Positions 2,817 through 37,424 of a stretch of DNA of 39,129 nt are shown in pieces; position 1 is the first letter of the stretch; every line of letters starts with the position of its first letter. Both the position numbers and the translations under genes were made by a program. The notes below the pieces were generated by a model. It saw nothing but the letters and a program-made list of their open reading frames with translations, ran no database searches and had not been told where the DNA came from. This stretch comes from a virus, in IMG/VR virus record IMGVR_UViG_3300020473_000004, positions 1 through 39,129 of that record; one strand, 5' to 3'.

Positions 2817-4451
2817 CTATATAGACAGCTTCATTACTGTAGCTGCGCCAGTAGGTGACGCAACAGATGATTTTGGAACCCATGTAGGCGCAGATCCCGT
2901 TCCGTTAGTTTGTAATATGTAACCAGATTGACCAGCCGCTAAATGTGCGGTTGTATCTGTTGCACTTTGATACAAAATGCCATTTGCAGCACCACCAGCA
3001 ACATTGCTAGCAGTAGTAGATATTGTAGGCTTGTTTGTAAGGTCGTTGTAATCACCGCTAGATGCAACTGCGTGTAAGCCTAAATTTGTTCTCGCCGTAC
3101 CAGCATTAGCTAAATCACTAAGATTTAATGCGGAATCAAGAAAATTGCTATCAGCAGTAGCTTTCAAATAATAACGTCCATCCGATTGTGATTGGGTGTA
3201 GACATCTGCAATATTGAATGCCCCATAACCAACAATATCTACTGTATCATTAGCGGCTGCACCCGATGCTAAAACAATATTAGCACCATCAGTTGCCGTA
3301 AAGTCGGCAGGCATAAGCTTCAAACCATTAAGATATACGTCTACATAGCCAACATCATATACTGATGCAAACGTTGTCTGATTTGCTGTGGCTGTATAAC
3401 TGCTTCTGTTTGTTGTACCATTAATAGCGCTTCCTGCAGCCGTCCAGCTACCACCAGAAGTACGAACAAACATCTTGTCAGATGTGCTATTAAAATACAA
3501 CGCTCCTGTTACAAGTGCATCACCATCATTATCTACTGTAGGTGCGCTTGTTTTTGGACCTAAATAACGATCATCAAAAGAATCGAATGAAGCTGTTGCG
3601 CTATTTGCGGCATTTTGCGCATCGGATACGGCAGTTCCAATACTATTAACAGCATTTGTTGCTGTAGTAGCTGCGCTTGATGCTGTTTGCGCTGATGTAC
3701 TAGCATTACTAGCGGATGTTGAGGCATTAGACTCGCTTGTAGCCGCGTTAGATTCACTGGTTGCCGCATTTCCTGCGCTTGTACTTGCATTTGATGCTTG
3801 AGTCGTAGCAATTCCAGCCTGTGTAGTCGCTGTAGTAGCCGCAGTTTGTGCATCAGATAAACTTGTTCCAATCGTTGCAACGTCAGCCGCAGCTTTTGCC
3901 GAATAATGCAAGGCAGAAAACCCGGTAGTTGTACCGTCCGATAAAGTAAATTGTGAATCTTCTGCATTAATAGCAAGTTTTTGTGCATCTGCAGCCGAAT
4001 TTGTTGCGCTTGATGCTTGTTGTGTAGCGGTGCTAGCAGCATTTTGTGTATTTGTTAATAAGCTAGGATCTTGTATTCTTGTTATTCGACCTTTTACATC
4101 TACGGTTATACCTGAGTTTGGATAAAACACTGGGCTAGAGTTAACAGGCAAAACACCACTGTCTTGTATGTCAATTGTTGGATCACCGCCTGCACCGTTA
4201 CCATTTGTAATAGTGACACCGCTACCTGTATTTGCGCGGAGTGTACGGCTTGTATAAGAGTTAGCACCCTCACTTACAATGAAACCAGCGTTAAGATTTT
4301 TAAGACCAACGTAACCGCCATCTAAAGAAGAGCCATCTCCAAAGTGCGTAAATATTTCGTTGAAGTTTGCGTTGATTTTTTCAGCCGCAATGTAAAGGCT
4401 GTCACCGTCCAGCGTACCCGGTTGTAAATTGTCAATAATTTGTTTTGTCAA
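2817..4451 (-). CDS. Tail fibre protein with Ala/Ser/Thr coiled-coil shaft (544 aa)
   Basis: The start codon is TTG, with GGAGG five bases ahead. An in-frame TAA lies just upstream, so no ATG start is possible. The N-terminal ~130 residues include an SGITVDVKGRITRI module like the modules in the tailspike at 17977-21039. Residues ~130-290 form a long Ala/Ser/Thr-rich repeat (many ASTS/SNAS units) typical of trimeric fibre shafts. The C-terminal half has a DVYLNGLKL...GAAANDTVDIVGYGAF block and an LSDLANAGTARTNLGL block, both common in phage fibres. The motif TTGTGCGTA and the Cys-rich mini-gene lie immediately upstream. Confidence 0.85.
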   Translation of the reverse strand: MTKQIIDNLQPGTLDGDSLYIAAEKINANFNEIFTHFGDGSSLDGGYVGLKNLNAGFIVSEGANSYTSRTLRANTGSGVTITNGNGAGGDPTIDIQDSGVLPVNSSPVFYPNSGITVDVKGRITRIQDPSLLTNTQNAASTATQQASSATNSAADAQKLAINAEDSQFTLSDGTTTGFSALHYSAKAAADVATIGTSLSDAQTAATTATTQAGIATTQASNASTSAGNAATSESNAATSESNASTSASNASTSAQTASSAATTATNAVNSIGTAVSDAQNAANSATASFDSFDDRYLGPKTSAPTVDNDGDALVTGALYFNSTSDKMFVRTSGGSWTAAGSAINGTTNRSSYTATANQTTFASVYDVGYVDVYLNGLKLMPADFTATDGANIVLASGAAANDTVDIVGYGAFNIADVYTQSQSDGRYYLKATADSNFLDSALNLSDLANAGTARTNLGLHAVASSGDYNDLTNKPTISTTASNVAGGAANGILYQSATDTTAHLAAGQSGYILQTNGTGSAPTWVPKSSVASPTGAATVMKLSI

Positions 4452-4499: not shown

Positions 4500-4508
4500 T
4501 ACGCACAA
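4500..4508 (-). promoter_or_regulatory. TTGTGCGTA boundary motif, copy A
   Basis: Read leftward, the motif starts two bases after the stop codon at 4511 and about 50 bases before the fibre start at 4451. The extended sequence matches copy B at 15 of 18 positions (TGTGCGTAT-nn-AT-n-AAGG). It is a candidate phage-specific promoter element or RNA processing site for the fibre operon. No good -35 hexamer is visible. Confidence 0.5.
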
Positions 4509-4510
4509 AA

Positions 4511-4666
4511 CTAATCTAATAACTCATTAGCTGTTTCGCCTTGGCAACACTCGTCTATGTTCTTGCCACAAGCACACTGCAAATGCCCATTCACATAATG
4601 ATTTCCGCGAGGATCAAGTTCGCATCCGCACTTCTCACACACTTTAACATTGTCCTGTATGCCCAT
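4511..4666 (-). CDS. Cys-rich mini-protein, possible zinc knuckle (51 aa)
   Basis: The protein has seven Cys, arranged as C-x2-C-x-C near residues 10-15, C-x-C at 31-33, and two adjacent Cys at 40-41, with two His between. This suggests a metal-binding zinc-ribbon-like fold. It starts at an ATG preceded by GGGGG, overlaps the end of the MscS-like gene by 23 bp, and stops two bases before the TTGTGCGTA motif. No specific family is recognised. Such small zinc proteins in phages are often regulators or host-factor binders, which is not shown here. Confidence 0.6.
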   Translation of the reverse strand: MGIQDNVKVCEKCGCELDPRGNHYVNGHLQCACGKNIDECCQGETANELLD

Positions 4667-4997
4667 TATTATCCCCCTCTCTAATAACACGGCTTATATC
4701 AAGATTAACTAGGTTCGTGTTTGCAATGTATCTCCACAACACACGACCATTCGGACACTCTACTTGAAATACGGTTTCGTAGAAACCCACTTTTATTATT
4801 CTTGCTTTTTTTCCTTCAAGGATTACTTCTTGCCCCGCGTCCCAATGCTTTGCACAGATAAACTTTATGCCATATATCGTATTGTTTATAAAATCTTTGA
4901 GAGCAAAACCAAACAACATAGCAATGCTTATACCAATCAAAGGCGTAGCCAATGTTGCTATATCAAAAGAAATCTGGTTCAAGGCAGACAGTTCCAT
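4644..4997 (-). CDS. MscS-like mini membrane protein (117 aa)
   Basis: A single strong transmembrane helix (about residues 12-33) is followed by ALKDFINNTIYGIKF and a short beta-rich domain with W-D-A-G-Q-E-V-I-L and an ANTNLVN segment. This order resembles the pore helix plus beta domain of MscS mechanosensitive channels (pore helix, basic linker, GD-x-V strand, PN-x-x-L turn), but the usual sensor helices and C-terminal cage are missing. It lies between small terminase and the fibre genes in the late unit. Possible roles are a membrane pore helping lysis or osmotic control. The family match is by eye and moderate. Confidence 0.6.
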   Translation of the reverse strand: MELSALNQISFDIATLATPLIGISIAMLFGFALKDFINNTIYGIKFICAKHWDAGQEVILEGKKARIIKVGFYETVFQVECPNGRVLWRYIANTNLVNLDISRVIREGDNNGHTGQC

Positions 4998-10374: not shown

Positions 10375-11005
10375 CATCAAAACGGAAGAGTTTTTTCTTA
10401 GCTCAATATTTCTAAACTTTAAGAATTTAATTGCTAAATGGGAAGGTGATGTCAGCGACCATCCCGACGATCCCGGTGGTTTTACCCGACGTGGTGTGTC
10501 TTTGCGGTATAATCCAGAGTACACAAAAGAAGATTTGATGAACTTCTCAAACGATGAGATTGATCTAATACTCTGGAATAAATACGGCAGACCTTTTAGA
10601 ATTTGGAATTGGTCGCCCGGACTTGCGTTAGCTTTTTACGACTGTTCAATAAATCAAGGGCCGGGAGCAGCCGTTTCCGTTTTGCAAAAAACAATCAACA
10701 AAATTTGTGGTGAGGAACTGAAAGTAGACGGTATCTTTGGATCAAAAACGGAAGGTGCATTACTTAAATACACAAACGATAACATACACACATATCCGTT
10801 TCGTAACTTACTAACGCAGTATTTAGCAAATAGAATGACAAGATATTGTTTTGGTGACGATACGTTTGCACAAGGTTGGTCTAATCGACTAATGGACATA
10901 GCTTTCTTTGCGTATCAGTTAGAACTAGAGTGGATGGCTTTACATCGTGAAGAAATTCGTAAAAGACACGAACAAATAGAGGAAGAAGAACCTACTACGC
11001 ACTAA
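10367..11005 (+). CDS. Endolysin, GH108-type muramidase (212 aa)
   Basis: The start at 10367 is chosen because GGAAGGA lies 6 bases ahead. The N-terminal domain carries the GH108 signature: KWEGD (catalytic Glu at 26) followed by DDPGGFTRRGVS (about 34-45). The second half contains a peptidoglycan-binding-3-type segment with KVDGIFGSKTEGAL. The enzyme would cleave the glycan strand of the cell wall. No signal peptide is present, so it needs a holin. It sits in the early-direction unit, apart from the spanin-like genes at 17.0-17.3 kb, which is unusual. A possible terminator begins at its stop. Confidence 0.85.
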   Translation: MTDIKTEEFFLSSIFLNFKNLIAKWEGDVSDHPDDPGGFTRRGVSLRYNPEYTKEDLMNFSNDEIDLILWNKYGRPFRIWNWSPGLALAFYDCSINQGPGAAVSVLQKTINKICGEELKVDGIFGSKTEGALLKYTNDNIHTYPFRNLLTQYLANRMTRYCFGDDTFAQGWSNRLMDIAFFAYQLELEWMALHREEIRKRHEQIEEEEPTTH

Positions 11006-11028
11006 AAAACTTGATTTGTGCGTATTTT
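10996..11028 (+). terminator. Possible terminator containing TTGTGCGTA motif, copy D
   Basis: TACGCAC (10996-11002, overlapping the endolysin stop region) pairs with GTGCGTA (11018-11024) around a 15-nt loop, and TTTT follows. The right arm is also the TTGTGCGTA motif (11016-11024) found at three other gene boundaries, here about 20 bases before the Cro-like gene. It may act as a weak terminator, a promoter element, or both. Confidence 0.5.
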
Positions 11029-11044
11029 AACGTATTAGTAGTGT

Positions 11045-11344
11045 ATGGGGGCGCGGTTAGATGCAGATACTAAGGCTCATCTGACATTAATAAGGCCATT
11101 TTTGGCATTTAAAAGAATGGCTTTAGGGTTAACGCAGGATGACCTTAACCATATGCTCGGTTTCGCAGACCGTTTAGTAAGTAAATGGGAGTGCGGAGAC
11201 CGTGACCCTTCGTGTTTTAGTTTTGAAGTCTGGTTTCAAACACTAGGGCTACCTTCCAAAGAGCAAGTAATCAAAGAAAGTTACGAATATGCAAAGTGTC
11301 ACAGGCATAGACTTGGGGCTAAAAGGAGCAATTGCGACTGTTAG
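11045..11344 (+). CDS. Cro/XRE-type helix-turn-helix regulator (99 aa)
   Basis: Residues ~20-65 read as an XRE domain: FKRMALGLTQDDLNHMLGF, then RLVSKWECGDRDPS, matching the scaffold and recognition helices of small phage repressors. The C-terminus is short and Cys/His-bearing. It overlaps the resolvase gene by 56 bp. It likely controls early transcription and may bind the palindrome at 6188-6206 (inference). The Shine-Dalgarno is weak, so expression may be low. Confidence 0.75.
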   Translation: MGARLDADTKAHLTLIRPFLAFKRMALGLTQDDLNHMLGFADRLVSKWECGDRDPSCFSFEVWFQTLGLPSKEQVIKESYEYAKCHRHRLGAKRSNCDC

Positions 11345-11783
11345 TTTATATCCTCTTACACTGGTTCAAGTAACAGATATGCCAGTAGTAGATAACTCCA
11401 TATGTGCGTATCAACTAAAATCAATAATCAAACAACACAAAAGCGACCATATTGTTATAGAAAATGTACACGCAATGCCAAATCAAGGCGTTGTATCTAT
11501 GTTTAAATTTGGGCGTAGCAAAGGGTTGGTTGAAGGTGTATTAGCAGCACAAAACAAACAAATAGAATGGGTGACTGCAAAAAAATGGAAATCTTATTAC
11601 CAGCTATCAAAACAAAAAAACGAAAGCAGAAATCTAGCTACTGCGTTGTTCAAAACAAGCACACAATGGCCTCTTAAAAAACACGATGGGAGGGCAGAAG
11701 CTACATTGATTGCTTTGTATGGACTCATAAGGAGACAATATGACCAATTCCCACAAGATACCGCATGGATGGAGGCCAAATGA
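11289..11783 (+). CDS. RuvC-like Holliday junction resolvase (164 aa)
   Basis: An RNase H-fold resolvase with the four acidic positions in place: D8 in TGIDLG, E58 in VIENVH, and D133/E137 in KHDGRAEA, plus the FGRSKGLVEGVL helix typical of this family. It cleaves branched DNA, needed to resolve recombination and replication intermediates before packaging. Length matches phage RuvC-like enzymes. The start lies inside the regulator gene and the end overlaps the DnaT-like gene by 44 bp. Confidence 0.85.
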   Translation: MQSVTGIDLGLKGAIATVSLYPLTLVQVTDMPVVDNSICAYQLKSIIKQHKSDHIVIENVHAMPNQGVVSMFKFGRSKGLVEGVLAAQNKQIEWVTAKKWKSYYQLSKQKNESRNLATALFKTSTQWPLKKHDGRAEATLIALYGLIRRQYDQFPQDTAWMEAK

Positions 11784-15795: not shown

Positions 15796-15932
15796 AAACA
15801 AGCGAAGCAGAAATATACATGAGTCCACATAATTTACGTGGGATACCGTATGATGTTAATTCTGCGGGAGAACGGCTATACGATGTAGAAACGTTAGATT
15901 ACTTCTTAAACTTTTTGCTTCAAGAATGTTAA
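15771..15932 (+). CDS. Hypothetical last early gene (53 aa)
   Basis: An internal ATG at 15771 is chosen over one at 15732 because it shortens the overlap with the previous gene to 25 bp, though neither has a strong ribosome site. The protein is soluble, with SPHNLRGIPYDVNSAGERLYD and a C-terminal aromatic helix. It ends 27 bp inside the tail of the convergent metallophosphoesterase gene, so the early and late units meet here without an obvious terminator. Confidence 0.5.
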   Translation: MEQEAKPLKTSEAEIYMSPHNLRGIPYDVNSAGERLYDVETLDYFLNFLLQEC

Positions 15933-17012
15933 GTAATCGGCTGCACATTCAACATCCCAAAAAACTTGCACAAGTCCTGTTTCTGTTGTCGCGTTAGGAT
16001 CAATAACGCAAACGCAACTGCTAGCAAAGTTATGATCTTCAAAGCCCCCTACTTTTGCGTAACTATCATATTTTTTGTATCCCCCAACACGAATACAATG
16101 AGATAACATTCCGTCCTGTTGCATAACAATATTGTAACCGCTTACGTGTTTGTGTCCCGCCAACAATATGTGATCTGAATAGTGCATCTGTGCCGCTTTA
16201 CTCACGCCATGCACTAAGTTCCATTGCGAATGACCGGGAAAATCGTGTCTACAATTAACACGTATTTCTCTACCGTTTGGCAACTGCAACGCAATGCGAA
16301 CAGACCACGCTTCTAATATTCCCTGCCCCGGTATTTTCATGTAATCAAGTGGATCTCCTGTCCCTGTCCACATATCATGATTACCTTTGATTAAAAACAA
16401 CCAAGGCACTTCTGTTGCTAACCACTCAGTAAGTTGCCACGCCTGTCTTTTGCTTGTTCCTTGTTCACCATACAATCTGCTTAATCGGCCAACCCAGTTA
16501 TTTTGCAAATCACCTACGTTCCCCGCCATCATGCCCGGAGTGTTTTTAGCTATTTCAACATCACGTAATAGACTAGGCCAATCACAACCATCGTCGTCCA
16601 CATGGGGGTCTCCAAAGACAATTAATCCAACAGGACCAGATTCTTTGACTTTAATTGATATTAATTTTCTGCTTTCGTATGCTTCTGATTTACGTTTGAA
16701 ATCATGCAGTCTACGTTCTATTAACTCCGAAATCGGAATATCTTCTTCAACCAGAGATGGCGGTTCAAATATTGGTTCTTGTTCTGTTTCGTAAGACATC
16801 TGCACAATTTCTCCCCATTGTAATTTTTCATCGGGAGACAACATGCCAAGCTCGATAGCTCTATTGACTCGTCGCATTATAGTATGTCGTGATACATTTA
16901 GTTTTTTAGCCGTTGCACTAGCGCTACAACCTGATTCTCTATAGACTTTAACTACCTCTGGCAGTTGTTCGTCAATGCTAGTCTGGCGCACAGGCTTTTT
17001 CCATTGCTTCAT
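15906..17012 (-). CDS. HTH plus calcineurin-like metallophosphoesterase (368 aa)
   Basis: Residues ~18-56 form a helix-turn-helix (SASATAKKLNVSRHTIMRRVN). After a linker, a calcineurin-like phosphoesterase follows with all metal motifs: GDPH (134-137), a VGDLQNNW GD motif, KGNHD, RHDF, and GHKH. It hydrolyses phosphoester bonds. The N-terminal DNA-binding part suggests that a nucleic acid, or a regulatory role, is involved. It is the last gene of the late unit and overlaps the spanin-like lipoprotein gene by 35 bp. Confidence 0.85.
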   Translation of the reverse strand: MKQWKKPVRQTSIDEQLPEVVKVYRESGCSASATAKKLNVSRHTIMRRVNRAIELGMLSPDEKLQWGEIVQMSYETEQEPIFEPPSLVEEDIPISELIERRLHDFKRKSEAYESRKLISIKVKESGPVGLIVFGDPHVDDDGCDWPSLLRDVEIAKNTPGMMAGNVGDLQNNWVGRLSRLYGEQGTSKRQAWQLTEWLATEVPWLFLIKGNHDMWTGTGDPLDYMKIPGQGILEAWSVRIALQLPNGREIRVNCRHDFPGHSQWNLVHGVSKAAQMHYSDHILLAGHKHVSGYNIVMQQDGMLSHCIRVGGYKKYDSYAKVGGFEDHNFASSCVCVIDPNATTETGLVQVFWDVECAADYLTFLKQKV

Positions 17013-17850: not shown

Positions 17851-18004
17851 TTCTCAATGCCTCCTTTTCTTCATAACAATCTAAATGTAAAAAGCTACCG
17901 TCTGCCATTGCAACAAAATATCTACCTTGTTTTGCATCATTCTTAGGATCTATTGTACCCCAACAATACGCACAGATTACAGACCCTCTACTACCTCGAT
18001 CCAA
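17810..18004 (-). CDS. Small treble-clef-like zinc protein (64 aa)
   Basis: CAYC near residue 11 and HLDC near residue 40 give a C-x2-C...H-x2-C metal site of the LIM/treble-clef kind. The only plausible start is a TTG at 18004, inside the tailspike tail, with GGAG seven bases upstream. It overlaps the tailspike gene by 28 bp. Function is unknown; such proteins bind DNA, RNA or protein. Confidence 0.55.
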   Translation of the reverse strand: MDRGSRGSVICAYCWGTIDPKNDAKQGRYFVAMADGSFLHLDCYEEKEALRNAESKNGYAVFNR

Positions 18005-21000
18005 AATTGCGCTCCTGCTTCAAGCCGTAGATCATTACCTGATGTAGTGCCAAATCGCACTTCAAAATAATCACCATCATACACTCTTACTAAATCACTT
18101 ATTGCGTTCAAACCTCCTGCGTGGTTCGGGCCTTGGTTAAACGCTCCTGTTGCCATCGCACAACCTCCAAACGCTTTACCGTCAGGACTCCAACCAGAAG
18201 CTCCCCAGCTAGACGCGTAATCGTCGGCTGCTTGTCTTGCGTTGCCGCCAGAATCAAAATGAATAATGCGGCAATTACCCGGCCCTACAACTGGATTGCT
18301 AGTAGCAGAACTCAATACACAACTCAAACCAACTCTCACCCATTTAACTGTGCCGTTTGATGGAATAGTAAACCTTCCCCATGTAGTTGTGGGATTGGCT
18401 GCAAACCCATCTGTATCATAAACAGTAGTAAATCTTGCTCCTATATGTATTGTTGGATTTACTATAAGAGAAGGATTAGTGCCAGTGTGATGATCGTATA
18501 ATTGCGCACCAGCAGGATAATACATCATTGCCCTTCGTGAAACTGCTTGTTTTGGATTTCTAGGACTATCGTTTTTGTATAAAAAAGGAGCGCCTTGAGA
18601 AGTATTGAAAGAATATGTGTTTCCAGTGATTGCATGATCTAAACAACTTTGACGTATCCAAAGAGCAGCTCCTGTGCCTTTCCATTGCCAATGGTTGTTT
18701 GATACTATAACACCTTCTATTGTTGGCGAACTTTGTCCTTCTCCGATCATAACGCCTACAGGGTTTGATGATCCTAAATCAGGAGCAGCAGTGTTAGAAT
18801 TATTAACAAAAATATTATTTGTAACAATAAACGATCTATGTAAGCCCGGCCCTGCACCTACGTGCGCTGGTGTGTCAGTTATGTTGCCTGCGTTTTCTGC
18901 CAGCCCTAATCCAACATTTTGCGAATCAAAATGTATACAAGAAGCCCCAGTATATGATTCCTCACGAATATACATTAAGTTGTTATTAACAAATGCTTGG
19001 TCGAACCATCCGTGAACACCACCTTTAGAACAAGCAAAATGACAGTTCATTACTTGAGCGCCTGTAATACTGTATTCTGCGTGACTGTTTATTCCAAATT
19101 CACAAGCAGTTAAACCACAGTTGACAACATATAAACCTTCTGGATCAGCAGAACTATCCGCTGTTTCACCGGGATTTGATCTACCAGCCAACTCTATACC
19201 ATTTTTGCAAAAGAAAAAGTTACAGTTTGTGACATGGTATTCAGTTGGTCGACTCCCATGAGGTAGATTTGTGCCTGTTTGCGCGCCGATATATATTCCT
19301 GATTGCGTACCAACTCTTTGTCGGTTTGTTGGTGAACCACTAGGCCAGTTATCGCCACTTATTAAACAGTTTTCAACTTTAGCTGCAGGGCAATCTATTA
19401 GTTTAATAGCACGATGCCAATACGCTTGCGGTGTTTGTCCTTGAAAATGCACTCTGTCAACATGAATTGATGGATCTACTATGCCTGCATGAAACTGCCC
19501 ACGAAAATCTAACGCATTATTTTCTGATGGGAACACATTATTTGTAATTGGCCCTGCTTCGCCACCTCCTGCTCTGGTGGTTTGTATTGTCATATCACTG
19601 ACAGTAGATTCAAAACCGTCAGCTATGCCATGAATGTGTGTACTAACACCACCTGACAAATCAATAATGAAACCACCATACTGACCAGTAAATCTAACTC
19701 TGGTTATATCCATACCAGCGCCTTTTATCCACACTGGTTTACCAGAAATTGTATGCTGTCCACTTGTAACAAAATCACCATCAGGGAAATACAACACTCC
19801 CCCTGCATTTGGAAGAGCCGCAATAGCAGCCGCTATTTCTGTAACATTATCGCGTGAACCATTTCCTACAGCGCCATGATCTAAGACGTTAACCCAACCT
19901 AAACCACTAGCGGAACCAGACGAAATGGCTTCGATGATACCGTGTTTGTTAACTGTAACAGAAGCATTAGTATACTGTGTTGGGGTTCCTGCTGTTACGG
20001 CTGCCGGCAGACCAGTTTGCTCTTTTATATTTATAACTGGATTTGAACCAAGTTGCTGATTAGTTACTTCTAATCCACCATTTGCGGCAGCAGTTACCGT
20101 GTTTGTTGTTAAAGCTGGAACGCCTGTTGTAGATGTTATATCTATAACTTGACCAAACTTGTTTAATTTAACTGCTTGCGGATACGCATACGCATTACCG
20201 TTGTTAGCAATTGTTTCGCTTATTTGGCTCAACTCTATTGTTAACGCACCGTTTGCTCCTTGGCTTCCTGACAAACCTTGTCCTACATTAACAGTGCCAC
20301 TACTACCGCCACTGCCAGCCGTTCCCGATGAAATTTTTGTAACAATACCTTTGCGATTGACTGTAACATTTGCATTAGTATATTCGAGGTCTGGCGTTAT
20401 GCCAGTTTGATCTTTTATTGATAAATTTAGTGACCCACCTTGCATATCTTGGCCGCCGTCTAAACCGCCTGACGTATCTATTCTAAAATCTTTCGATACT
20501 TTTGTGTTGTCTACAGTGGTTGCAACCCCTGTTGTTGTTCCTTCTTTTGTTGTGATTATCTTTCCTGTACTGTCAAACGCTAAATATTTATTGGCTCTTT
20601 GCGTTGCTGTATCAGTAATGTTTCTTACATTTGCATCAAATTCTGTCGGCCCAAAACCAATTTTATTGTCAACCTTGCGATCCAAATCTTGTGTGATAGC
20701 TGTCAGTTGATCTAATTGTCTGTTTAGTTCACGTATGTTAAACCCGCCAGAAGGTGGGAAATCTGTTAGGCGCGATTGCTCAATGTTTCTAGCAATAGTT
20801 ATTTTGCAGTTACTAACACCAGTGTTAAAAACAACAGTACCCGATATAAAACCACCATCATCGGCTGCGACTGTTGTTATTGTGTAATCGGTAGTAAGTC
20901 CTTTTAAAGTTGTGTCTACATAAACATCAAGGTCTTGTTCTTTGAAAAACGGAAAATTTACAGCAAAAGTTGTTTGCGGTGTATTACCGACCGTGTAACC

Positions 21001-21039
21001 GATTCTTGTATCAAGTTCTGTTATATTTAGATTTGCCAT
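17977..21039 (-). CDS. Tailspike with T7-fibre N-terminus and pectate-lyase-like beta-helix (1020 aa)
   Basis: Residues 1-~125 match the T7 tail-fibre attachment domain (TRIGYTVGNTPQTTF-x-VNFPFF, SRLTDFPPSGGFNIRELNRQLDQL). Two copies of YTNA-x-VTVN-x-x-GI-x-x-ISSG follow (~220-238 and ~356-375) as shaft modules. From ~382 a pectate_lyase_3-type right-handed beta-helix begins (VLDHGAVGNGSRDN...GGVLYFPDGDF) and runs past 800. The last ~150 residues are a separate beta domain. The protein binds the receptor and probably cuts a surface polysaccharide. GGAG precedes the ATG, and motif copy B lies 45 bases upstream. Confidence 0.9.
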   Translation of the reverse strand: MANLNITELDTRIGYTVGNTPQTTFAVNFPFFKEQDLDVYVDTTLKGLTTDYTITTVAADDGGFISGTVVFNTGVSNCKITIARNIEQSRLTDFPPSGGFNIRELNRQLDQLTAITQDLDRKVDNKIGFGPTEFDANVRNITDTATQRANKYLAFDSTGKIITTKEGTTTGVATTVDNTKVSKDFRIDTSGGLDGGQDMQGGSLNLSIKDQTGITPDLEYTNANVTVNRKGIVTKISSGTAGSGGSSGTVNVGQGLSGSQGANGALTIELSQISETIANNGNAYAYPQAVKLNKFGQVIDITSTTGVPALTTNTVTAAANGGLEVTNQQLGSNPVINIKEQTGLPAAVTAGTPTQYTNASVTVNKHGIIEAISSGSASGLGWVNVLDHGAVGNGSRDNVTEIAAAIAALPNAGGVLYFPDGDFVTSGQHTISGKPVWIKGAGMDITRVRFTGQYGGFIIDLSGGVSTHIHGIADGFESTVSDMTIQTTRAGGGEAGPITNNVFPSENNALDFRGQFHAGIVDPSIHVDRVHFQGQTPQAYWHRAIKLIDCPAAKVENCLISGDNWPSGSPTNRQRVGTQSGIYIGAQTGTNLPHGSRPTEYHVTNCNFFFCKNGIELAGRSNPGETADSSADPEGLYVVNCGLTACEFGINSHAEYSITGAQVMNCHFACSKGGVHGWFDQAFVNNNLMYIREESYTGASCIHFDSQNVGLGLAENAGNITDTPAHVGAGPGLHRSFIVTNNIFVNNSNTAAPDLGSSNPVGVMIGEGQSSPTIEGVIVSNNHWQWKGTGAALWIRQSCLDHAITGNTYSFNTSQGAPFLYKNDSPRNPKQAVSRRAMMYYPAGAQLYDHHTGTNPSLIVNPTIHIGARFTTVYDTDGFAANPTTTWGRFTIPSNGTVKWVRVGLSCVLSSATSNPVVGPGNCRIIHFDSGGNARQAADDYASSWGASGWSPDGKAFGGCAMATGAFNQGPNHAGGLNAISDLVRVYDGDYFEVRFGTTSGNDLRLEAGAQFWIEVVEGL

Positions 21040-21083: not shown

Positions 21084-21092
21084 TACGCACAA
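21084..21092 (-). promoter_or_regulatory. TTGTGCGTA boundary motif, copy B
   Basis: Read leftward, this motif abuts the stop codon of the 1116-aa core protein and runs on as TATATATAAAGG, 45 bases before the tailspike ATG. It shares 15 of 18 positions with copy A. The AT-rich TATATA could serve as a -10 element of a tailspike promoter. Confidence 0.5.
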
Positions 21093-24000
21093 TTACTCTA
21101 CACCTGACGCTATTGCGTCAAACATCATTTGAAAATGAGCTATCCTTGAGTAAGGTAAAAGCCCTGTTGCTTTGCTAGTATTTGGCATATCACCGTTAAG
21201 TATATCTCCTGCTACGTTTATAGCGTTCATGCCTTGTGAGATTGACGGCCCTAATATCATTTGGAGCTGACTCTTTTCATTTGTGTACCGTCCTTGCCCT
21301 AATGCGTTTGCCATAGAAAACGTACCGCCACTTAGTTCGTGCAAGTAGTTGTCAGCATCCATAATTAGTCCTGTCCATCCTGATCTTACAACGCCCTCAT
21401 ATATAAGTTCGTCAATGCTCATCTCAGGGCCACCAAGCTGTTCGTTACGCACCCAACCTACTGCCGATCCTATTGCTGTCATCAACGCAATTTGCGTAGC
21501 TGTCTGGCGTGTTGGGTTTTGTATCATTGGCACAAGCACTCTCGTATGAGATGACATTGCAAATGATTTAAACTGCGTTAATAAGCTTATATATTCGTTT
21601 GACATAAATAATGGTTTTTCACCCAAGCCCGGTGTAACAACAACCGTTCCAATTTCTTTTGCTAACGCATTATCAAACGCGTCTTTTGCTATCAAGTTCT
21701 CCCACTTTGCGCTGTTAGCAATTACATTAGCGTCCGTAGAGTCCCAATGTGTGCGCATTTTATATATAGATTCGATTTCTGGCTGACCAATACCTGATGC
21801 GGCTAATCTTTCACGCTGACTTTTTGTCGCTGTTCCAAGCATTACTGCTTCTACGTCCTGTAATATTTTTGTCCCTACAACGATGCCTGTTGCTGTTTTC
21901 GCAAAATCGTTCCACAAAGACATACCGTTAACAACGAAGTTTAATGACGCTAACCCTGACATAGCTGATTCAAACCTATTGTGCATACCAAAGCTATCAC
22001 CAAGATCCGCTATTTGCGCAGCTCTACTATTTAACCAAAACTCAAAACTTTCTCCCACTTCTCTGTTCTGCGCTAATCCTTTTTTCCAGACATCATTATT
22101 CATGAGCGCGTCAAACAAACTGCCCATAGACTTGCGTAGTCCATTAGCAGTTACCACTCTTGCAATATCAGGTGCAGCCGCCATTGCTCCTGTAAGCAAC
22201 GTCATTGCTGAAAAGTTTTTTGCTACTCGTATTGCTCTTGATACTCCGCTATTCGGATCAGCCGGAACCATATAAGTTCCACGCATAAGATCCCGCATAG
22301 CAAGAAGATCTTCGATGACGCTATCACGTTCTTTAACAAGTTGTGCTGTGCTTTCTCCTGCATCTTGAAGTGCCTTTAGTTTTGCTTCGTAATTTGCTTT
22401 TACTAATGCTAACGGTCCTTTTTCACCAGTAAACACATTATCCATCTCTAAATCGATAGATCCAAACTTTCTATACAGTTCTAAGTCTGGAGCCATTGTT
22501 CTAGAGTACTGCGTCATAATGCTGAGTATATCGTTTTCCAAAAACTCTGCGTAATCACTGTCTTTGATCCAATTAAGTTCTCTTGCATGAAAACTACTAG
22601 CGGCACCAGTTTGGCTTTTGTCTGTCGCTTCGATATAAGGTTTATAATCTTTCAGACGATGCGCAATCTTTTGCGCTTCACGCCTTGAGATTTGCCCATC
22701 TTGCATAAGTTTTTCTACAAACTCATCAAACTTTGCTTCTATTTTATCTTTACGCCACAAACGAGGTAGAAAAGTTGTTGCGTTTGCTCTTATGCCTTTT
22801 TTAATCTCTTCTATTTGTTTTTGTAAATTAGCTATTTCTTCTGCTGCATTTTTACCTCCACGTTCACTTAATCGTTTTATCTGCCTTGTTAAATTATCCC
22901 AAGGAATACCTAACTCAATCATCTCATCCATATATTTATTAAAAATCATATCAACTTCTTTGAGTGCATGATTTACTTCTGGTATGTCCGACTTAACTCC
23001 TGATCGTCTAGCCTCGCTCACCATTTGTCTGAACTCTAATGCAGTAGGCATACGGCTGGATGGACGGAACCCTAATGTTCCCATTAGTTTTCTTGCTCCA
23101 CCAGCGCCTTCTCTACCAATCATCTTCCAGTAATTATTATAAATTGATTGGTGCATACGGCCTATGTCGCCACGATACTTTGTGCGTATAAGTGTCTCTA
23201 CTGCTGTTTCTGTAGCTTGATACGCCATACGCTCAGTATTTTTTACGAGTCGTGGCACAACCTCAAACACATCTAACATTAACTGTTTTGCGTTTACATC
23301 ACCCGAACTAAGTATACGCCCTATCGGTGTAATAAAATCTAGCCCCGCATATGTTTTGTCAAACGCATTGCCTTGCAGTTCTTCACCTAACGTACGCTTT
23401 CTACCACTAAAATTACTAGCTGCACCTACGCTTTCTGGTGATGGTTCTGGTATATCTTTACCTTTTAACACTCCGTCTTCAGCCGCTAATCCCGGTTCTT
23501 TAGCAACTTTTTCTCCTGTTGCGTGTGCAGCCGAAGCATCTTCTGCGTTTAATGTTTTGTTGTAACGTGTTTTTATAGCAGATCCCCCGCGACCAATTAC
23601 TCTAAACAACCCACCTAACGCCATAGTCATTGCTATCTCTTGCGTTGTTGCTGTTACAGCCCTTGAGTAATCAGGGTTAGCTTGTTTCTGCACCTCTAAA
23701 CCATAATTCCGCAACCCACTATACATTCCAGCTTTTAATGATTGTTTGATAATTTGTTTAGCGCCACCCTTAACACCCAATGCTACCCACGCTTCCGGCA
23801 ATGCCGCTATGCCAACAATACCACCTAATGAATAATCCGCAGGGGCTTCTCGTATTATTTGTTTTCGTTCTTCTTCTAGTTCTAAATAATGCGTGACTGA
23901 TGCGTATTTTTCGAAGCTATCAACACCTTCATAGAAAGGGGCTAACAACTCTCTTTTGTCTTCTTTTAATTGTGCCATTAAATCGAAATTAGGATCAGGA

Positions 24001-30577: not shown

Positions 30578-31429
30578 CTATTCTGTGTACTGGACTTCTT
30601 CAAGTCCATCTTGGTCAATAATAACACTACCAAGTGCTAACGAACCTACGAACAAGAAAGCCGCATATTCGTTCTCATATGATGGTGTGATTTGTGGTTC
30701 AGCGTTCATGCCAAGGCCGACTGCGCTTCTGTGGTAACAGAAACTTTTTCTTGTGCTACCAGAAATAGGTAGACCAGAGAAAGACCACCACAAGAAACCA
30801 AACCAACGTTTTGCCGTAATGCCAGTAGGCCAAGGAAGTTGATCTGGGCCAATATAATCAGCGTCAGAAAACTCTTGGATGTCGATAAGATCAACCCAAC
30901 CAGCAGGGCTAACAGGCCAGTATCGCTGTCCATCATCGGGAACATCTCTGTCTCCGAATCTTTGATGAACACCTTGGATTTTAGCTTTTGTTAAGCCAGT
31001 GCTGCCATGAACAACAACATTGTCAGCCCCTTGTGGGCTTTCTGATGTGCCAGTTGTAGCGCTATCCATAGTTGTTGTAAGAACCTCGTCAACTTTACGA
31101 CCTAATGCCCCTGCAATTGCTTGCACAGTAACTTGTCGTTCGTCGATGTTGGTCTTTAGCATGTCCAGCTTATCAATTAGTTCGCCAGTGTAGTAGTCAT
31201 CCATTGAGACCTTAACTTTAGAGTGATCAAGGTTCATCAATGGCACTTTACCGTGACGAGCTTTTTGCCCTGCAACGCCTTTACCAATTTTTGGAAAAGT
31301 GTCGTCTTGGGCAGATACCTTCTTCTCGCGTACTGTGTTTCGGAGTTTAGAACCCATGCGCTGGAAAGCAACGTGTACTTCACTCTCAAACTGCGAGATA
31401 AAGGTATTGTCTATGGTAGGTGCTGCCAT
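30578..31429 (-). CDS. Major capsid protein (283 aa)
   Basis: The position after scaffold and before tail tubular A matches the podovirus order. The sequence fits the shorter HK97-fold capsid class: TFISQFESEVHVAFQRMGSKLRNTVREKK at the N-terminus, RYWPVSPAGWVDLI in the middle, and a C-terminal AAFLFVGSLALGSVII. Length suits an unprocessed subunit. AAGGAA precedes the ATG. A 149-bp leader with motif copy C and an inverted repeat lies upstream. Confidence 0.85.
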   Translation of the reverse strand: MAAPTIDNTFISQFESEVHVAFQRMGSKLRNTVREKKVSAQDDTFPKIGKGVAGQKARHGKVPLMNLDHSKVKVSMDDYYTGELIDKLDMLKTNIDERQVTVQAIAGALGRKVDEVLTTTMDSATTGTSESPQGADNVVVHGSTGLTKAKIQGVHQRFGDRDVPDDGQRYWPVSPAGWVDLIDIQEFSDADYIGPDQLPWPTGITAKRWFGFLWWSFSGLPISGSTRKSFCYHRSAVGLGMNAEPQITPSYENEYAAFLFVGSLALGSVIIDQDGLEEVQYTE

Positions 31430-31534
31430 TTTACAATTCCTTTGCAGTTAAAATTACACTAAACGGTTGTTCCAACGTCTGTAACTGTATCTGGTTGTTC
31501 CTTACGGGCCAGAGTTACAACCGCATGGGCCGAT

Positions 31535-31548
31535 AATTACCAGTAATT
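31535..31548. promoter_or_regulatory. AATTAC-CA-GTAATT palindrome in capsid leader
   Basis: Perfect 6+6 inverted repeat with a 2-bp centre, about 106 bp upstream of the capsid start. Its half-site ATTAC/GTAAT recurs at 5646-5658 beside the late promoter. Possible operator for the late unit. Confidence 0.3.
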
Positions 31549-31566
31549 TAGCAAAGAATGTATTGT

Positions 31567-31575
31567 TACGCACAA
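31567..31575 (-). promoter_or_regulatory. TTGTGCGTA boundary motif, copy C
   Basis: It begins three bases after the stop codon at 31579 and stands at the head of the 149-bp capsid leader, read leftward as TTTTGTGCGTAACAATAC. This is the longest leader of the late unit and holds no gene. A promoter here would give the capsid its own strong transcription. Confidence 0.5.
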
Positions 31576-33596: not shown

Positions 33597-35129
33597 CTAT
33601 TGTGGCTCTCCCCTTTGTTGATCTAATACAGGCGCTAAATCACCAATTGTATTTTGCAATAATGACGCTTGTTGTTCTGGATCACGCAACAACTTAAATG
33701 GCACTTGCTGTCTTTCTGCATACCATCTTGCTGTTTCATCTTGATCTACTAATACTTGTGTTATTTGTGGGCCAAAAATAGCAACCATGCGTTGCATAAA
33801 CTGATCCATATTTGTAACGTCTTGCATACGTTGTGCGGCTGCTAATGGCGATTGTGATACTATTTTTATTGCCTTGCCATTTATTGTTGGTATTTCAATG
33901 AGGCCTTTTTTCTTCATAATGTACACAACACGCTGAATAACAGGCTCTACTAATTCTTTCATTAATCGCCCAAAAGCCGGGCCAATTTCTTGAGCCAATT
34001 GAGCCATACGCTCCGCGACCTCAGTAGCCGACATTGGGGTAGCTTCATGCGGTCTCCCTAGTTGTTGATTATATAATGCTTTTTTTATGTTATGACGCAT
34101 ATCGTCCAACACAAGTTGCCCCACATCAAATCGTGCGGGGGTCTGTAAAGGATCTATTCGTGATCCGGGGGCGCGTGGAATGATGATTCCCGGTCTTAAG
34201 TTAATGCTATCTGGATTTATCACCCCGTCATCATCCGCTTGCCACATTCCAGTAACAGCCATATCTGCATTTTCAAGTATAAGCTGCACTACAAGATTAC
34301 ACGTTCTTATCGCTGGCAAAGCATTAATAACAGGGCCACGACCATAACTTTCCCCTGCCGCTTTGCTCCAACGGAACAACACCCACGGATTTGAACCACG
34401 ACCTGAGTATCGTTCTCTTGCTAATTCCGTTTCTATACTAGGTATATGCGCAACATAATCCCAATTTCTAACATTGGCAGTTGATCTGTCACGCATTGTT
34501 GACTGTATAACTTCTATTTGATCGTTGCTTGAATTACGATGCTGTATTGTTTCCAAAACCTCTTTCGGTGTGTCAGGAAACATAATAGGAATATGATCTA
34601 CGCGACAAAACTTTCTGTAATGCACATCATCTATTAAACCGTCAGGGCCATCTTCTATAGCGATTTCTGTCAACGGTATTGCTTGGAATCTCAAAGGATC
34701 GACAGCATCTCCCGGAAGAATGTTAAGAACACCAGTACCCACAGCAAGGTCATGCAACGCCTCATTTACTTCTTGATCAAAATTAGAGTTTGCTATGTGA
34801 TCGAAAACTTTTTCGGTAATTCTTTGTAGTTCAGCATTGATTTCTTCTGCTTCTTCTTTGTCTTCAATATCACTGCCAGCTACAAGATTTGCCCATCTAG
34901 CAAACGGTGGTATCAATGAACTTTGCAATTCGGCTGCAAATTCTGTAACACCGACTACAGCCGTCTCATCAAATATTCTATCTGTTCTTGATAGACCTAT
35001 TTGATCGCTATGATCAAACCCCTGTCTCGTTGGCATAGTGTAGTCATATGCGTCTTGAAACAAGGGCTTATATCTATCACGTTTAGTAAAGGCTTGTTCA
35101 GCCTTATCTTTCAGTGTTTTGGGGGTCAT
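33597..35129 (-). CDS. Portal protein (head-tail connector, T7 gp8-like) (510 aa)
   Basis: The length and order are typical of podovirus portals, and the sequence has hallmarks: YTMPTRQGFD near residue 30, FDETAVVGVTEFAAELQSSLIPPFARWANL, PWVLFRWSKAAGESYGRGP, and a C-terminal helix rich region. It forms the dodecameric ring through which DNA enters and leaves, and docks the terminase. It lies between the small linker gene and the Bbp19-like gene. Confidence 0.9.
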   Translation of the reverse strand: MTPKTLKDKAEQAFTKRDRYKPLFQDAYDYTMPTRQGFDHSDQIGLSRTDRIFDETAVVGVTEFAAELQSSLIPPFARWANLVAGSDIEDKEEAEEINAELQRITEKVFDHIANSNFDQEVNEALHDLAVGTGVLNILPGDAVDPLRFQAIPLTEIAIEDGPDGLIDDVHYRKFCRVDHIPIMFPDTPKEVLETIQHRNSSNDQIEVIQSTMRDRSTANVRNWDYVAHIPSIETELARERYSGRGSNPWVLFRWSKAAGESYGRGPVINALPAIRTCNLVVQLILENADMAVTGMWQADDDGVINPDSINLRPGIIIPRAPGSRIDPLQTPARFDVGQLVLDDMRHNIKKALYNQQLGRPHEATPMSATEVAERMAQLAQEIGPAFGRLMKELVEPVIQRVVYIMKKKGLIEIPTINGKAIKIVSQSPLAAAQRMQDVTNMDQFMQRMVAIFGPQITQVLVDQDETARWYAERQQVPFKLLRDPEQQASLLQNTIGDLAPVLDQQRGEPQ

Positions 35130-35354: not shown

Positions 35355-35440
35355 TATTTTTTCTTCTTCATCATTTTTGATTTAGATTTAGTTTTTGGTT
35401 TCTTTTTTTTGCCGGGGGTAATTGTAATTTTTAATCCCAT
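35354..35440 (-). CDS. Very short Lys-rich peptide (28 aa)
   Basis: It starts at 35440, overlapping the preceding gene by 10 bp. After GLKITITPG almost every residue is Lys, with Ser and Thr. Too short for a fold; if expressed it would bind nucleic acid or acidic partners. Its stop overlaps the next start by one base, supporting coupling. The weakest of the basic mini-genes. Confidence 0.45.
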   Translation of the reverse strand: MGLKITITPGKKKKPKTKSKSKMMKKKK

Positions 35441-35877
35441 GACGCTACCTCATCTGTTGATAAATTTGTGTCCGAAGTTACAAAAGAACGCTTTGCACCC
35501 GCCTTTGTGTACGCACAAAACAATTGCGTAGGGGTAAAAGCTAATGATTTAAACTTAACTAAGTGTTTAGCACCCGCCACACAAGTCGCAAGCGGAAAAC
35601 ATAGTTTTTTATAAGATTCTTTTGTTTGCGGTTTGCGCAATATCGATCCACCGCGCCTTAAAACGTGTACGATAAAATTATCTAATTGATCATCGCTAAA
35701 TTTATAAAAATGCACTCCAATAAACGACCAATCATATAAATACCATTGGTCATCGGACGCATCATAGCCTAAAGCGCATACGTGTTTGTACTTACCTCGA
35801 CAAAAAATATAATCCCACCAATATTGTTTTTGTCTTGCTATAAATACTAAGTACCACGTCGAAATATTTGTTCCCAT
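35431..35877 (-). CDS. Hypothetical protein, possible cysteine-peptidase-like fold (148 aa)
   Basis: Aromatic-rich protein with FCRGKYKHVCALGYD early and FPLATCVAGAKHLVKFKSLAFTPTQLFCAYTKAG late. The TCV-x-x-AKHL...TP-x-QL-x-x-Y pattern resembles small NlpC/papain-like phage proteins that carry a Cys at the head of a helix, with His residues upstream. Such a role is uncertain. It follows large terminase with a 31-bp overlap, and a copy of TTGTGCGTA occurs inside (35510-35518). Confidence 0.5.
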   Translation of the reverse strand: MGTNISTWYLVFIARQKQYWWDYIFCRGKYKHVCALGYDASDDQWYLYDWSFIGVHFYKFSDDQLDNFIVHVLRRGGSILRKPQTKESYKKLCFPLATCVAGAKHLVKFKSLAFTPTQLFCAYTKAGAKRSFVTSDTNLSTDEVASWD

Positions 35878-37424
35878 TTATCGTTTGCTCTTTTCTTGTT
35901 TTGCATAACGTGCTTTTGCCTGTCAAACGGATCATAAAACGATTTACCGTTAGCTATCTTGCCTTGTTTTTGGCCCATCATTTTGCGACTTTCGCCACCA
36001 CCAGTAATAGCGTACTGCAAAGCGTCATGTATATGTGAAAACTTGTTTTTATCGGGAGCATCATGAAATCTTTCTGTTGCTCCTGTCGCTCTTACTCTAT
36101 TGTAGGCATATCCTCCTTCAAACCCGCGCTTCAAGACAGTACAGCTAGGATCTAATAGAAATCCTGCTTTGCCTTGAACAACGCGAGTCAAAACCCCATC
36201 CACACTATCTATCCGTAAACTAGGATCATTAGTAGGGGCAGGGTACGCTTTCAATCCTGCGGCTCTAAGAATTGAAAACGGTGTTCGCTCATCTGTTTGA
36301 GCGCGGTAATCACCGCTTGGGTCGCCATAAATTATAGCGTTATCGAAATGGTCTGGGAATTTGCGCGCTATAACGCTTTTTACCTCTTGGGCAAATTTTT
36401 CTGTACCCATGTTTGATGCTACCAATTCTGCTAATACCAACCATCGGCCTGTAGGAAGACGTTGGGTAAATACAGCCGCCGGAGTCAAACCGAAATCCAT
36501 TCCAATAATGAGATCTTGGCCTGATGTCGGTATGGGTTCTTTTGCTAAATGAATTTCGGCTGCAAAGTTGGGATATACAGGCTTGCCTTCTACTACGTTG
36601 CCTATCCTGTTCATTACATAAACGTCTATCCATGATTTTGTCTTCCCTGCTATTAGTTTCGGGTAATACGTATCGACAAGGTTTTCTTTATTTTCAGCGT
36701 CTTTATTTGGCTGATAATCAAGAACTTCCCCATCAGGCGCTTTGATCTCTTTCAATGCGCTAGGTTGCGTATAGAACGTCCAATCATCAGGACAGACCAA
36801 CATCATAGCTTCTTCTCTTGTTATATACTCAGGCAATGGCACTTCGCCTGACATAATAGCCCACCAATGGTCTTCATCGGGTGCGTTAGTATCCATAACA
36901 ACGCCATACCAAGTGGGGCCACCATCTTTTTTGCTTGGAAATCTGCCAACACGCATAGTACAGGCATCAATAATAGATTTAGGCACTTCTCGCGCCTCAT
37001 TTATCCATATCCCGGTAAATTCAATAGACAACAATTTTCTAACATCTTCGTCGCGGTCTAATGCTAAAAAAATAACTTCTATTTCAACATCGGCAAACTT
37101 AACTAAGTGTGTATATGGCACAGACCATTTAAATATCCCAAAAACATCTTCTGGATACCAATCTAGCCATGTTTTTATTGTTGTTGTGCGTAACTGCGGA
37201 TTTGTGTTGCGTATAATGCCCCAACGCGATCTTCTTATGCCTGTTTTATCAGGTTCTTGCTGACAAGCCCTGCGCATTACTTCGATGCAACAACTCACCG
37301 ATTTGCCAGATCCTACTGGCCCTCTAATGCCTCTAACAAAAGCATTGTCTTTTAAAAATTTTTTGAGAACATCACCACCCGGCTTGTATTCGAATTTATA
37401 GCCGTTAGTTAAGTTTTCCTGCAT
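35847..37424 (-). CDS. terL: Terminase large subunit (525 aa)
   Basis: The ATG at 37424 is preferred to a TTG one codon earlier. The ATPase half has Walker A GPVGSGKS (35-42) and a Walker B-type IWINEARE, and the nuclease half has the acidic sites MDFGL, YGDPSGDY, and DALQY. It translocates and cuts DNA during packaging. The order is unusual: small terminase lies far upstream (5.1-5.6 kb) behind the tail-fibre genes. Confidence 0.93.
   Translation of the reverse strand: MQENLTNGYKFEYKPGGDVLKKFLKDNAFVRGIRGPVGSGKSVSCCIEVMRRACQQEPDKTGIRRSRWGIIRNTNPQLRTTTIKTWLDWYPEDVFGIFKWSVPYTHLVKFADVEIEVIFLALDRDEDVRKLLSIEFTGIWINEAREVPKSIIDACTMRVGRFPSKKDGGPTWYGVVMDTNAPDEDHWWAIMSGEVPLPEYITREEAMMLVCPDDWTFYTQPSALKEIKAPDGEVLDYQPNKDAENKENLVDTYYPKLIAGKTKSWIDVYVMNRIGNVVEGKPVYPNFAAEIHLAKEPIPTSGQDLIIGMDFGLTPAAVFTQRLPTGRWLVLAELVASNMGTEKFAQEVKSVIARKFPDHFDNAIIYGDPSGDYRAQTDERTPFSILRAAGLKAYPAPTNDPSLRIDSVDGVLTRVVQGKAGFLLDPSCTVLKRGFEGGYAYNRVRATGATERFHDAPDKNKFSHIHDALQYAITGGGESRKMMGQKQGKIANGKSFYDPFDRQKHVMQNKKRANDKWEQIFRRGT

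Follow-up and report, generated by a model that had tools for sequence, protein, structure and literature searches.

The window considered here, that is, the whole stretch of 39,129 nt that was analysed, is a contig of a marine podophage whose virion module is T7-like. Its minus strand carries the genes for the terminase, portal, capsid assembly, capsid, tail tube A and B, internal virion proteins, tailspike and fibre, and its plus strand those for an endolysin, an HTH regulator, a resolvase, exonucleases and an SSB. No neighbour was found when positions 1-25000 of the window were compared by megablast with the phage collection, and the nearest isolate, judged by the terminase, is Pelagibacter phage Hodr (56.7%). 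Two near relatives (L492 and L493) sit in metagenome bins labelled Neomarinimicrobiota and Halobacteriovorax, which are unrelated phyla, and these placements are probably binning artefacts.

The word TTGTGCGTA occurs in seven exact copies in the window, both strands being counted. On the minus strand, the copy at 4500-4508 heads the tail-fibre gene (2817-4451; phrog_38058, 4.4e-30), whose start is 56 nt away from the T of TGTGCGT; that at 21084-21092 lies directly past the stop of an internal virion protein gene and 52 nt upstream of the gene for a tailspike-like tail protein (17977-21039; phrog_1640, residues 17-117); and that at 31567-31575 lies upstream of the major capsid gene (30578-31429; phrog_3437, 4.5e-54), at 145 nt from the T of TGTGCGT. 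A fourth minus-strand copy (35510-35518) falls in the 3' part of the ORF 35431-35877 and heads the portal block, whose portal, or head-tail adaptor, gene is found downstream at 33597-35129 (minus; phrog_332, 1.1e-80). On the plus strand, the copy at 11016-11024 is placed between the endolysin gene and that of the HTH regulator, 28 nt before the start of the latter, and has an inverted arm, TACGCAC (10996-11002), with which it forms the pair TACGCAC-N15-GTGCGTA (10996-11024). The regulator gene (11045-11344, plus) encodes an XRE/CII-like HTH protein of 99 aa (PHROG CII-like, 2.8e-4), which is a candidate reader of the motif, and is followed by a Holliday resolvase gene (11289-11783). The two remaining copies, also on the plus strand, are antisense to the genes in which they lie, an internal virion protein gene (23180-23188) and terL (37184-37192). 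An additional boundary copy with one mismatch, CTGTGCGTA, is present at 17967-17975 (minus), 1 nt past the tailspike stop, and the relative G001 has TTGTGCGTA at this place (16243, minus).

An earlier note on this DNA had listed six of these copies with correct coordinates and strands, the one in terL being missing from it. It had also claimed that the four boundary copies lie 0-10 nt past a stop and point with transcription, and this is indeed the case, the distances being 2 nt for 4500 (minus), 0 nt for 21084 (minus), 3 nt for 31567 (minus) and 10 nt for 11016 (plus); the stop that precedes the 4500 copy is that of a 59-aa ORF (4511-4690). The fibre, tailspike, capsid and regulator/resolvase blocks that it named agree with the gene assignments given above, and the 18-bp match with 15 identical positions that it reported is the one between the copies at 4500 and 21084. 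The expectation of less than one copy by chance was borne out by dinucleotide shuffles of the window (n=100), in which TTGTGCGTA was found 0.43 times on average (sd 0.69, maximum 3) against the seven observed. The two intragenic copies, which the note had treated alike, have to be told apart, since the copy at 35510 (minus) is under nucleotide-level selection, whereas that at 23180 (plus), antisense within a gene, is probably a bystander. The copy in terL is probably a bystander too, which coding conservation would have preserved in close relatives: L009, L010, L017 and L020 have its counterpart at a distance of 1,677 nt from the portal copy, and G002 does not.

When one mismatch is allowed, 19 matches are found in the window against 13.8 expected, an unremarkable number; since this count shows no excess, the signal resides in the exact core. 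Four of the ten occurrences of TGTGCGTA in the window begin 0-12 nt past a called same-strand stop (binomial p 1.4e-6), the 4500 copy being outside these four and its ORF having been dropped by the crude gene caller. An unbiased 7-mer scan of the 0-12 nt past stops placed TGTGCGT/GTGCGTA first in the window (p 1.3e-5), as well as in three clade-A (1.2e-12) and four clade-B genomes (1e-9). In five genomes without the motif at these sites, TGTGCGT/GTGCGTA was not among the eight words listed by the same scan.

In a large group of marine, uncultured phages, the core TGTGCGT(A/TG) is found where the blocks of capsid, portal and tail genes begin. Conservation at syntenic boundaries in relatives had been named by the earlier note as one of the points on which its proposal could be refuted, and the word was found at the same structural-gene boundaries. 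The sites common to the relatives are located past TerL and ahead of the portal gene, ~145 nt upstream of the capsid gene, and ahead of the tailspike or fibre gene. At the capsid site, TTGTGCGTA is present in 14 of the 15 loci with 81-100% MCP identity, and CTGTGCGTA in the remaining one; among 65 more distant loci, 46 have TGTGCGT within 300 nt upstream, at 134-157 nt and often right past a stop. At the fibre site, TGTGCGT stands 53-59 nt upstream of the start in all five loci whose match reaches residue 1, which were taken from 80 loci and include two that are nearly identical to the window. The tailspike comparison comprised seven loci, one of them not spanning the boundary; the six that cover it have an exact TGTGCGT in three cases and, in the other three, which belong to one lineage, AAGTGCGTA.

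Whole contigs give the same picture, with seven copies of TTGTGCGTA in G001 and three to six copies of TGTGCGTTG in each of the clade B contigs G009, G010, G011 and G014. In clade C, made up of seven contigs (G016-G019, G023, G026 and G031; terminase ~62%), four contigs have the word 2-3 nt past terL and three have it within an ORF, all seven have it 141-152 nt upstream of the capsid gene, and all seven also at the tailspike/fibre site, in four of them 2-3 nt past a stop and 41 nt before a start. Contigs with a G+C of 0.49-0.51 carry the word as well. At the portal site of G034, two motif copies were observed 24 nt apart.

Across 80 TerL loci, TGTGCGTTG was counted 80 times in sense and once in antisense. 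Five of six control permutations were found 0-4 times per strand in these loci, and the sixth, TGCGTGTTG, 42 times in sense and 3 in antisense, presumably as a coding repeat; since this control is biased too, strand bias alone is no proof of function. At the portal site, where the word lies within a gene, Cys is encoded by TGT and Ala by GCG in 27 of 27 distinct variants (three rows judged unrelated having been set aside), and in the 18 variants in which Leu comes next it is always TTG (Cys-Ala-Leu/Tyr frame), while the codons of the neighbouring Thr, Pro, Gln and Leu residues vary. In clade B, GCG represents 3.1% of the Ala codons and TTG 5.8% of the Leu codons. At the clade C capsid site, all 13 contexts found by pattern have the word in a different frame, where it gives Phe-Val-Arg-Cys, one row judged unrelated having been set aside. 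Since the codons are fixed and the reading frames differ, the protein sequence does not account for the word.

The word tends to be present at several sites of a genome or at none. In a tally of 87 sequences spanning the capsid and portal sites, which combines loci and whole contigs with some overlap, it is found at both sites in 59, at neither in 24, at the capsid site only in four and at the portal site only in none. G020, near G037 and G018 on the portal tree, is without it at all three sites. In a G015-like lineage without the motif, TTGTCT-17-TATAAT is located at the capsid boundary in 16 of 19 loci (five of six non-identical leaders); bacterial sigma70 promoters have their -35 and -10 hexamers at a spacing of 16-18 bp. 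Sigma70-like scores of at least 9/12 were reached by 25 of the 59 motif-bearing capsid leaders (42%, against 29% in mononucleotide shuffles) and by 8 of the 20 leaders without motif (against 27% in shuffles), five of these eight being TTGTCT-17-TATAAT, so that such scores fail to separate the leaders with and without the word. An ordinary sigma70 promoter may stand beside the word at capsid leaders, where the scores are if anything slightly above those of shuffles, and in the window no excess of sigma70-type promoters was seen around the word.

With regard to the factor that could read the word, nothing over the cut-off was obtained for sigma region 4 (PF04545 and PF08281) in 12 contigs. The only sub-cut-off matches to sigma region 4 came from the N-terminal HTH of a DNA-repair-exonuclease-like gene (15906-17012, minus), present among the compared genomes only in G001 and G002, and from its homologues in these two genomes. 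In a screen of 115 ORFs, crudely called from two seed genomes and scored in 10 genomes with and seven without the word, the XRE/CII-like HTH gene ranks first, being present in 10 of 10 against one of seven (p 5.7e-4 before correction for 115 tests; next-best ORF p 0.05). The family entered the screen via its G018 seed, the G010 seed not being among the rows listed, and the screen omitted G011 (motif-bearing, 31.7 kb, HTH not detected), whose inclusion gives 10 of 11.

When 20 contigs were picked for the HTH gene only (the longer ones among 80 HTH loci, three previously examined being excluded), TGTGCGTTG was found in 19 of them, with 54 copies against eight for the reversed word. Within a set of 41 contigs, those longer than 31 kb have the HTH gene in 16 of 17 cases with the word at the capsid site against one of eight without it, and in 9 of 10 against one of eight after excluding the seven that had been chosen for the HTH gene. 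No HTH match was obtained in the shorter word-bearing contigs G012, G014, G026, G031 and G065, which are too short to show absence, nor was any homologue found in 12 contigs near G020, in a search that lacked a positive control; among the six of these 12 whose sites were scored, the word is missing from five, the exception being G065 (24 kb). The isolate Hodr has an HTH homologue and lacks the motif. On the portal tree, there are only two independent word/HTH pairs on supported branches, which is not significant, and the link between word and HTH gene is correlative only.

HTH_3 was detected at E<=0.01 in eight of eight members of the HTH set A3, the two members with listed scores both being below the Pfam cut-off, and PHROG CII-like matches were obtained for the window protein and for the same eight members. 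In three clade C loci (L279, L281 and L286), the HTH gene is flanked by a small gene of 64-93 aa with an ST(F/Y)YR stretch common to them and another of 108-116 aa with CxxC pairs. Judging from the co-occurrence, the HTH protein encoded at 11045-11344 would most likely be the factor that reads the motif.

The distances between the word and the genes limit what it could be. According to crude gene calls, 41-67 nt often separate the word from the start codon at non-capsid sites, with exceptions from 28 to more than 400 nt, and at several clade C tail sites the start codon lies ~41 nt past the word, with a possible ribosome site at ~+27 to +33. Since start codons and ribosome sites are so near, the transcript would begin within ~30 nt of the word, and this short spacing makes a distant activator site less likely than an element that is part of the core promoter, adjoins it, or lies at the 5' end of the RNA. 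In the motif profile, the information is found chiefly from -1 to ~+9, with a conserved core of 8-10 bp that consists of a single word and shows no repeat of the TTGC-N6-TTGC type. No -10 or -35 element was found at a fixed distance across site classes. A role as a -35 element, with a -10 at 17 bp, was considered and rejected, since there is no consistent -10 and the clade C tail sites leave little room. At the portal and capsid sites of clade C, a weak second box, RTGTTTA, was seen by eye ~25-32 nt past the word.

It is proposed that the word is a lineage-specific late-promoter element used by the host RNA polymerase together with a phage factor, a reading to which we would give a probability of about 0.57. 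The supports computed here are the motif itself, its synteny, the nucleotide-level selection, the lack of a detectable T7-type polymerase and the co-occurrence with the HTH gene; from the sequence, we infer the role in transcription initiation, the lateness of the blocks, the start positions and the binding of the HTH protein. Thus, T-TGTGCGT-A or T-TGTGCGT-TG would be the lineage-wide core of TTGTGCGTA and the recognition element of the phage late promoters, heading each of the portal, capsid, tailspike and fibre blocks. The host RNA polymerase and a phage DNA-binding factor, for which the small XRE/CII-like HTH protein would be the likeliest candidate, would start transcription at the word or shortly past it; in promoters of the phiEco32/7-11 type, transcription starts 6-9 bp from the element. 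Each structural block would thereby get its own late start, and the remainder of the short intergenic region would be a 5' leader with its ribosome site. The earlier note had left the choice between a promoter, an activator site and an mRNA processing site; syntenic conservation best supports the first two, and mRNA processing, like antitermination, is less supported.

More tentatively, this could be the minimal late switch of a podophage lineage that is large, marine and uncultured, in which one XRE-type HTH protein of ~80-100 aa would guide the host RNA polymerase to a word of 9-10 bp without any phage polymerase or sigma factor. Word and protein would have been lost together several times, and in at least one lineage the place of the word at the capsid boundary would have been taken by a sigma70-type promoter; this view is possible rather than probable. 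Among the papers listed from an open-access collection, which largely leaves out subscription journals, no description of the word was found, nor any of late-gene timing in marine podophages devoid of an RNA polymerase. The word allows the heads of structural blocks to be predicted with nothing but the sequence, which helps to annotate many uncultured contigs, and, together with a single candidate protein, it makes the late-gene question testable in vitro without culturing either host or phage.

It is rather unlikely that the word acts instead as an RNA-level signal, that is, as a cleavage, 5'-end protection or antitermination site of the late mRNA, read in sense orientation where each block begins. 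Its near-strict sense orientation and tight placement past stops would agree with such a role, and so would a covarying hairpin located downstream of it in the capsid 5' leader (31430-31566, minus). This hairpin, which can be written stem-CCC-N4-GGAAYAA-stem, is conserved across clades A and C. Its stems, read by hand, covary, for example as CTGG/CCAG, TTGG/CCAA, GCGA/TCGC, TCGG/CCGA and ATGG/CCAT, and it is possibly a regulatory RNA of the capsid mRNA. RNAalifold returned 0 pairs for the capsid leader, and we think that in its input the MAFFT alignment failed to bring the motifs and stems of clade A into register with those of clade C; the gathering thresholds of Rfam were reached by no match in the window, and the capsid leader gave one Rfam hit, at chance level.

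A strong terminator-like hairpin right past the word, as antitermination might need, was found in two of 56 non-identical capsid leaders (L071, 7354-7377; L062, 448-466), in both beside an ACGCAC/GTGCGT inverted pair, and these two cases are awkward for a transcription start at the word. Its absence from the other 54 capsid leaders and from 56 of 56 portal leaders weighs against an RNA signal, and for the same reason the word was rejected as an intrinsic terminator. In the window, a chance-level terminator-like match (35500-35486, minus) lies just past the 35510 copy, and the intrinsic-terminator counts are not above chance (16 against 17.4 and 12 against 15.6 expected). Also weighing against an RNA signal are the sigma70-type promoter that occupies the place of the word in one lineage and the co-occurrence of the word with a protein of DNA-binding type, no other of the 115 ORFs being comparable.

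The same protein could be thought of as a repressor that binds the word as an operator over ordinary late promoters and delays the late genes, a possibility that we regard as improbable. XRE proteins are often repressors, and the AF2 model of a clade C homologue has an XRE fold (pLDDT 80.5), for which Foldseek gave HipB as the best PDB match, followed by other XRE proteins and restriction-controller C-proteins (E 5e-3, none at 1e-3). An operator would agree with the inverted motif pair that precedes the HTH gene in both the window and G010 (L098), and TATAAT abuts the word at many clade B capsid sites. This TATAAT, however, is a product of the sequence around the stop codon of the preceding gene and does not occur at the sites of clades A and C, and the inverted pair is not conserved. 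Autoregulation through a motif copy at the HTH gene was rejected, since it is seen only in the window and G010; 58 of 58 non-identical HTH loci (77 of 80 loci entered) have no motif copy in the 400-600 nt upstream. L062, L066 and L071 have inverted pairs too, in their capsid leaders.

A promoter for a single-subunit phage RNA polymerase such as that of T7 could be expected from the T7-like virion module and from an element placed at operon heads, and is nevertheless very improbable: PF00940 had no match in any of 10 contigs, the T7 control giving 9.9e-110, and the core of 8-10 bp contrasts with the ~17-23 bp conserved element of T7-type promoters. Finally, the antisense copies at 23180 and 37184, without evident role, and the strand bias of TGCGTGTTG, which shows that coding can yield such a bias, would be compatible with chance or coding coincidence, an explanation that the placement, the fixed codons, the two reading frames and the intergenic copies leave with hardly any credibility.

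Taking into account the promoter reading, the word can be compared with known systems. Lambda CII reads TTGC-N6-TTGC around -35, and CII-activated promoters are similar in that a small HTH phage protein, here CII-like by PHROG, would be involved; unlike them, the element described here is a single word, with no -10 at a fixed distance and little room for a -35 role. T4 late promoters, which are not known to have a -35 element, are likewise short single elements of late genes used by the host polymerase with phage proteins. The word itself differs from that of T4, given as TATAAAT in PMC9004378. The window lineage shares T7-like virion genes with the HTVC010P-type pelagiphages and differs from them in that neither HTVC010P nor HTVC035P has the word at its capsid or tail sites. 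For one phage of this type, Skadi-1, PMC10504331 reports no viral RNA polymerase, and four sigma70 promoters plus two Pribnow boxes near replication genes.

According to PMC8948821, phiEco32 and phage 7-11 are podoviruses whose late promoter words are specific to the lineage, stand at similar places in the genome and are used via phage sigma factors, the middle and late promoters of phiEco32 carrying tAATGTAtA and depending on the phage sigma gp36. The likeness lies in a short conserved element at syntenic structural-gene heads and in the use of the host RNA polymerase, lateness being inferred in the present case, and the differences in the word, in the XRE HTH candidate and in the lack of any sigma factor over the cut-off in 12 contigs. 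Since no sigma factor was found, the word is not placed in the class of phage-sigma promoters; if the promoter reading is right, it would work like one of them.
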